Part shown: one piece after another, positions 10,265-10,325 of the stretch
Layout: the number at the start of each line of letters is the position of its first letter
How positions within the stretch are numbered: the first letter of the stretch is position 1
Source of the DNA: an uncultured Methanosphaera sp.
Lineage (GTDB): Archaea; Methanobacteriota; Methanobacteria; Methanobacteriales; Methanobacteriaceae
Assembly: GCA_946537725.1 (NCBI GenBank)
Contig: CAMNFZ010000005.1
Location: 1-36,392, forward strand
Direction of reading: 5' to 3'
Length of the DNA stretch: 36,392 nt
The notes under the pieces: generated by a model
The model's input: only the letters and a program-made list of their open reading frames with translations
The model's database searches: none
What the model was told of the DNA's origin: nothing
Translations under genes and position numbers: made by a program

Positions 10265-10325
10265 TGGCCAATGATGAACCCTATGAGCTCTGAACTGATG
10301 ATGAATGATGGGCGAACTGAGGCTA
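10265..10325 (+). ncRNA. box C/D guide sRNA
   Basis: Compact archaeal C/D sRNA architecture on the + strand: C box ATGATGA (10271-10277), 12-nt guide (10278-10289), D' box CTGA (10290-10293), C' box ATGATGA (10298-10304), 12-nt guide (10305-10316), D box CTGA (10317-10320). Short flanks TGGCC and GGCTA can pair to close the kink-turn (one wobble). Guides of 12 nt and four exact boxes are what the family requires. The D guide can pair over nine positions (one G-U) with the universal 16S rRNA segment CGCCCGUCA, placing C1402 (E. coli numbering) opposite the fifth base upstream of box D. The D' guide predicts a C within AGCUCAUAGGGU, target uncertain. It lies between PAN and the convergent cobK. 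Confidence 0.85.

Follow-up and report, generated by a model that had tools for sequence, protein, structure and literature searches.

What does the short stretch of DNA immediately behind the gene for the proteasome-activating ATPase PAN encode in an uncultured Methanosphaera sp., and, if it is a box C/D guide RNA as an earlier note on this sequence had proposed, which nucleotides would it modify? The window analyzed here is the whole stretch of 36,392 nucleotides from contig CAMNFZ010000005.1. We favor, with a probability of roughly 0.75, the reading that the locus encodes a double-guide sRNA for C34 of tRNA-Met and C1402 of 16S rRNA, perhaps also for C2558 of 23S rRNA, which would be processed from the PAN transcript.

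Positions 10262 to 10328 of the forward strand read GAATGGCC-A-ATGATGA-ACCCTATGAGCT-CTGA-ACTG-ATGATGA-ATGATGGGCGAA-CTGA-GGCTATTT, and the probable mature RNA extends from ∼10265 to 10325. Rereading the sequence returned the four boxes that had been called exact, namely, box C (ATGATGA, 10271 to 10277), box D′ (CTGA, 10290 to 10293), box C′ (ATGATGA, 10298 to 10304), and box D (CTGA, 10317 to 10320), as well as the two 12-nt guides, the D′ guide (10278 to 10289) and the D guide (10305 to 10316), with a 4-nt D′-C′ spacer, ACTG, at 10294 to 10297. The flanks, which had been thought able to close a stem, pair as the 5′ arm (10262 to 10269) and the 3′ arm (10321 to 10328) of a terminal (C/D k-turn) stem of up to 8 pairs, two of them G-U. 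The fifth base upstream of box D is G10312, at the coordinate given earlier, and that upstream of box D′ is G10285. A simple base-composition model, set to the GC content of the window (29.6%), predicts 2.2 × 10−4 chance double C/D units per 1.2-Mb draft genome and 6.7 × 10−6 per window. The genome contains 57 half-units of the form RTGATGA...CTGA, of which the sRNA at 10262 to 10328 is the sole adjacent exact pair. All Rfam matches of the window RNA are subthreshold, the best being to archaeal C/D families (sR1, 36.3 bits, E value of 4.8 × 10−8; sR2, 33.5 bits).

To assess the conservation of the element, we searched 60 relatives and the genome itself with the sRNA by blastn, which yielded matches in 51 of the 61 genomes, a few of these being chance matches to the AT-rich flank. 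Both guides were read at 49 loci, 48 of them in genomes of the class to which the window belongs and 1 in another phylum. The D′ guide unit, searched as a 22-base pattern, was present in 140 of the 152 phylum genomes and in 90 of the 91 whose completeness is at least 90%. The boxes, on whose retention in close relatives the earlier note had staked its reading, persist in relatives both near and distant, box C as RTGATGA in all of them. Counted from the box, positions 2 to 11 of the D′ guide and 3 to 11 of the D guide are invariant at all 48 loci of the class, and position 2 of the D guide is A in 47 of them. What drifts are the outer guide positions and the D′-C′ spacer, which varies freely between 3 and 7 nt and occurs in 18 versions. 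Stem pairs −3/+2 to −7/+6 covary across 48 distinct flanks, and none of 2,000 shuffles reached the observed pairing over these five positions. The invariant guide cores, compensatory stem, and drifting spacer together indicate that the boxes, the stem, and the pairing with targets are under selection, and it is the conservation across the phylum that leads us to take the sRNA as real. Four exact boxes, two 12-nt guides, a short spacer, a closing stem, and targets at N+5 are all present, as in archaeal C/D sRNAs. Every test applied to the sequence agrees with the guide-RNA reading, and at this level the element is confirmed as an archaeal box C/D sRNA of textbook form, ∼60 bases long.

The PAN gene (9001 to 10224, forward strand; Pfam AAA, E value of 1.7 × 10−47, and Prot_ATP_ID_OB_C) lies directly upstream of the sRNA on the same strand at all 48 Methanobacteria loci, with gaps of 13 to 244 nt, so that the sRNA sits in or just 3′ of the end of PAN. 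The location had first been described as the gap between PAN and cobK; the PAN side of this description holds throughout, whereas cobK (CbiJ/CobK by Pfam) is adjacent only within the genus of the window, and we rejected its linkage as meaningful. In 18 of the 48 genomes, only 13 to 23 nt separate the PAN stop codon from box C, which leaves no room there for a promoter of its own upstream of the stem. The sRNA is therefore probably cut from the 3′ end of the PAN transcript, or else transcribed from a promoter inside PAN, although the gaps of 100 to 244 nt in some relatives could house a promoter. A scan for sigma-70 promoters and terminators, which does not model archaeal promoters, gave nothing useful. 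Elsewhere in the window, a 421-amino-acid open reading frame at 6504 to 7769 has no Pfam match.

For the D′ guide, the earlier note had pointed out the likeness of its CUCAUA target core to the anticodon loop of tRNA-Met. The elongator tRNA-Met gene of the genome, found by searching with GCTCATAGGG (G000:C2:41672-41681, minus strand; the genes of relatives were found likewise), carries an intron after A37. Across the exon/intron junction of this pre-tRNA-Met, GGCUCAUA/GGGU (the slash marking the junction), the D′ guide forms 12 of 12 contiguous pairs, one of them G-U, with G10285 opposite C34 in the N+5 register. The likeness is thus borne out, and the GGGU remainder of the match turns out to be the first bases of the intron. 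The duplex with the pre-tRNA is predicted at −21.3 kcal/mol, versus −10.7 kcal/mol for that with the spliced tRNA-Met, and this much weaker pairing after splicing suggests that methylation would come first. Guides of the D′ type are also present in other archaeal phyla, where they covary with both the base at exon position 31 and the beginning of the intron. Guide TACTTATGAGTT of G311 forms 12 pairs with pre-tRNA-Met GACTCATAAGTA, as does guide GCCCTATGAGTT of G201 with GACTCATAGGGC; elsewhere the guides form 11 to 12 pairs (G375, G294, and G182), 10 to 11 (Hydrothermarchaeota), 10 (G060 and G296), or 9 (G345). Given that guide and pre-tRNA-Met covary, the target class of the D′ guide is settled, and as far as pairing and covariation can tell we consider its target solved as C34 of elongator pre-tRNA-Met.

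We also considered rRNA as a target of the D′ guide and rejected it: in 16S rRNA the best match has 8 pairs, which shuffled guides reach equally well, and in the 23S stretch compared it has 9 pairs, with G-U, falling short of the 12-pair tRNA match. ARAGORN missed nearly all intron-bearing tRNA-Met genes and called one of them Tyr, so the genes were read by eye. The tRNA-Met genes of some lineages (e.g., G361, G205, and families f53, f34, and f39) were not identified, the pattern search in families f53/f34 and f39 returning other CAU tRNAs only. Folding of the pre-tRNA with ViennaRNA gave no cloverleaf and did not recover a bulge-helix-bulge.

The D guide raises a more difficult question. Its proposed pairing with CGCCCGUCA of 16S helix 44 (1400 to 1408), nine contiguous pairs with one G-U that place G10312 opposite C1402 at N+5, was confirmed on the 16S rRNA of Hydrothermarchaeota and other archaea; the 16S of the host itself was not seen, and the segment is near-universal. 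The sequences were taken from other archaea because an Rfam model search found no 16S in the draft genome itself or in nine Methanobacteria genomes; the rRNA operon is given as N in its upstream part in those Methanobacteria genomes that were inspected. The same guide forms 10 to 11 contiguous pairs with UUCGCCCAUUA of 23S rRNA, in the 3′ strand of the A-loop helix (H92), where C2558 falls at N+5. The two duplexes are equal in energy (−17.2 kcal/mol for 16S and −17.1 kcal/mol for 23S), and ∼6% of shuffled guides equal the score of the real D guide against 16S alone, which makes the 9-nt pairing marginal by score. Pairing of the D guide alone thus does not decide its target, and C1402 is not the only candidate; the earlier note, which had no 23S sequence, missed the equally stable match at C2558.

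What favors C1402 is the comparison across lineages. In lineages with A at 23S position 2557 (G263, G269, G311, and G312), pairing with 23S is broken and the guide still fits 16S, as read directly in the 16S of G263 and G312 and from the universal segment for G269 and G311. In these lineages guide position 2 is G, which lengthens the 16S match to C1399, and in G312, whose 16S position 1405 is A, the match is wholly Watson-Crick. Position 2 is G in 4 of 4 lineages with a broken 23S site versus 3 of 18 in which 23S can pair (Fisher P = 0.005, uncorrected for phylogeny); the latter have A in 15 of 18 cases. Since the guide still fits 16S in all four lineages with broken 23S pairing, 16S C1402 is the favored candidate for the old target, and 23S C2558 is a possible second target where the sequence allows.

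A closely related alternative, which overlaps with this explanation, is that the D guide is bispecific throughout, methylating both 16S C1402 and 23S C2558 with a sequence that is a compromise between them. The duplex energies are equal, and the invariant core calls for both targets: the A at position 2 fits 23S U2555 and mismatches 16S C1399, and the T at position 8 is Watson-Crick with 23S A2561 and a wobble with 16S G1405, whereas the G at position 10, invariant in the class, is Watson-Crick with 16S C1407 and a wobble with 23S U2563. Position 2 also tracks the possibility of 23S pairing. However, this position could be kept for reasons of the RNP, and G occurs there in three lineages whose 23S site is intact (G320, G282, and G245), though it still wobbles. 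We give this alternative somewhat less than an even chance.

A further alternative is that the D guide acts mainly on 23S C2558 and that its fit to helix 44 is a by-product of the CGCCC shared by both sites. The longer 23S pairing (10 to 11 contiguous pairs against 9) at equal energy, the retention of the A at position 2, and the Watson-Crick pair at position 8 speak for this alternative. It sits poorly with the A2557 lineages, which keep a guide suited to 16S and not to 23S and change position 2 to G, with the G at position 10, and with the lineages in which 23S C2560 has become U (G257 and G219) and the guide has not changed in step. Moreover, Cm1402 is a known 2′-O-methylation site in three domains, while we found no report of Cm2558 in the literature consulted. 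Overall, we regard a mainly 23S-directed guide as unlikely.

The ribose methylation of the preferred target, C1402, in bacteria and the guided counterpart in eukaryotic 18S rRNA, both invoked by the earlier note, correspond to m4Cm1402 made by RsmH/RsmI and to the site of AtU43 (PMC11542601). Cm1402 has been mapped in Pyrococcus abyssi (as Cm1369), and its Arabidopsis counterpart is snoRNP guided; for archaea, this review lists neither an enzyme nor a guide responsible for Cm1402 (PMC11542601). In an RNA sequencing survey of seven archaea, helix 44 predictions were sparse and lay at the counterparts of 1408 and 1494 (PMC4644070).

We propose the following mechanism. The sRNA, excised from the 3′ end of the PAN transcript, would assemble with L7Ae, Nop5, and fibrillarin, the genes for the latter two lying side by side as an operon in the genome (G000:C14). 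The D′ guide would pair across the exon 1/intron junction of unspliced elongator tRNA-Met and direct 2′-O-methylation of the wobble C34 ahead of splicing, while the D guide would pair with 16S helix 44 and direct 2′-O-methylation of C1402, on the P-site side of the decoding center; the same guide may act on 23S C2558. Expression of the sRNA, its processing from the PAN mRNA, its assembly into an RNP, and the methyl marks themselves are inferred, as is the preference for 16S over 23S.

The D′ guide covers the 5′ splice site and pairs far more weakly with the spliced tRNA, which would also suit an RNA acting mainly as a chaperone or splicing regulator, masking the splice site of pre-tRNA-Met until methylation and delaying the folding of helix 44; such roles have been proposed for archaeal double guides (PMC4644070). 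For chaperoning alone, the four boxes and the N+5 register, kept here as in methylation guides, would be needless, and we consider a mainly chaperone role improbable. That the sRNA is a functionless chance or decayed copy, as its subthreshold Rfam matches might suggest, is refuted by conservation across the phylum and beyond, the covarying stem, and the guide/target covariation, and has next to no probability.

The order of the guides is not the same everywhere. A scan of named genomes yielded 11 records, mostly from Hydrothermarchaeota, in which the same two guides are carried on one RNA but exchanged, with the 16S guide between C and D′ and the tRNA-Met guide between C′ and D. In other genomes (e.g., G060, G328, G294, G311, and G182) the two guides lie at separate sites. 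Two origins are conceivable: the guides may have come together on two separate occasions, or the two genes may be related by circular permutation. Circular forms are common among archaeal C/D RNAs (PMC7994747), and a circular sRNA reopened at its other loop would have its guide order exchanged exactly as seen. We therefore put forward, tentatively and as a less than probable extension of the main reading, that one sRNA couples ribose methylation of tRNA-Met C34, 16S C1402, and, as a third target, 23S C2558, that this coupling is old, and that the swap arose by circular permutation. Three side observations concern individual loci. G182 has its guides on separate sRNAs (L097 and G182:C157:11391-11412), unlike most of its phylum; in some relatives within a Hydrothermarchaeota-like phylum, a hairpin replaces the short D′-C′ spacer (L094, L095, and L092, from G178, G179, and G176, respectively); and in G169:C83 (L087/L098), a second, truncated D half (CTGAGCCCTATGAGCGCTGAGAC) lies ∼800 nt from the intact sRNA, possibly as a remnant of duplication or an effect of assembly.

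The core GGGCG beside box D, and the GATGGGCGA guide class as such, occur in many archaeal families. Archaeal sRNAs of other families with the GATGGGCGA guide score above the Rfam thresholds for sR2 (RF01139) and sR1 (RF01152), for example, L117 with 54.4 bits and L134 with 52.7 bits; they share this guide with the window RNA, but their partner guides differ, and the window RNA stays below both thresholds. In families f15, f89, and f50 (sRNAs L125, L124, and L127; 23S L154, L152, and L155), the partner guide is GCGAACAACC, which by inspection forms 10 of 10 pairs with GGUUGUUCGC of the A-loop of these families' own 23S and puts 23S U2552 at N+5. In families f53 and f34 (L117 to L122), the 16S-type guide is partnered by CGGAGTAGCT or CGGTGGTAGCT, and we found no target for this partner; L117 and L120, the two sRNAs that were tested, score above the sR2 threshold.

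Methanocaldococcus sR8 also combines 16S and tRNA targets. SNORD43 and yeast snR70 guide methylation of the 18S nucleotide that corresponds to 16S C1402, and the Rfam SNORD43 model gave only 13.7 bits on the window RNA. Like AtU43, a C/D RNP guide (PMC11542601), the window sRNA is predicted to target this nucleotide; eukaryotic U43 is not known to carry a tRNA guide. Bacterial RsmH/RsmI modify the same 16S nucleotide but are stand-alone protein enzymes without a guide RNA (PMC11542601). The tRNA half of the sRNA has a known function: Grosjean and co-workers described C/D guides that act in trans on intron-containing tRNA-Met to direct Cm34, which must happen before splicing, as in Haloferax, with 18 candidates from several orders (PMC2584109), and sR-tMet has been assigned in haloarchaea (PMC4033218). 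The window sRNA resembles Haloferax volcanii sR-tMet and Pyrococcus sR49 as a trans-acting C/D guide that pairs with intron bases of intron-containing pre-tRNA-Met ahead of splicing (PMC2584109 and PMC4033218), and it may be among the 18 candidates of Grosjean 2008. It differs in that its other guide has an rRNA target, and its D′-C′ spacer is 3 to 7 nt in this group, against 19 to 21 nt in halobacteria. Human SNORD97 and SCARNA97 are likewise C/D RNPs that methylate C34 of tRNA-Met, but there two RNAs cooperate, and we found no rRNA guide noted for them (PMC6601510). For Pyrobaculum, a review states that the sRNAs guiding tRNA modification lack a target for the second guide (PMC7994747).

We found no description in the literature consulted of the rRNA half of this sRNA, nor of the union of tRNA and rRNA targets on one such RNA, its phylum-wide fixity behind PAN, or the swap, the last three of which appear to be new. 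16S Cm1402 is among the very few ribose methylations common to bacteria, archaea, and eukaryotes. The sRNA and the GATGGGCGA guide class provide a named, deletable candidate for its archaeal guide, and the swap in Hydrothermarchaeota is an example of how evolution may permute circular guide RNAs. The two predicted targets, the anticodon of tRNA-Met and the 16S decoding site, meet when a methionine codon is read. That one RNA would serve both, in a genome in which we see no further exact double C/D unit, suggests that the tRNA-Met and decoding-site marks belong to those that mesophilic methanogens lose last.
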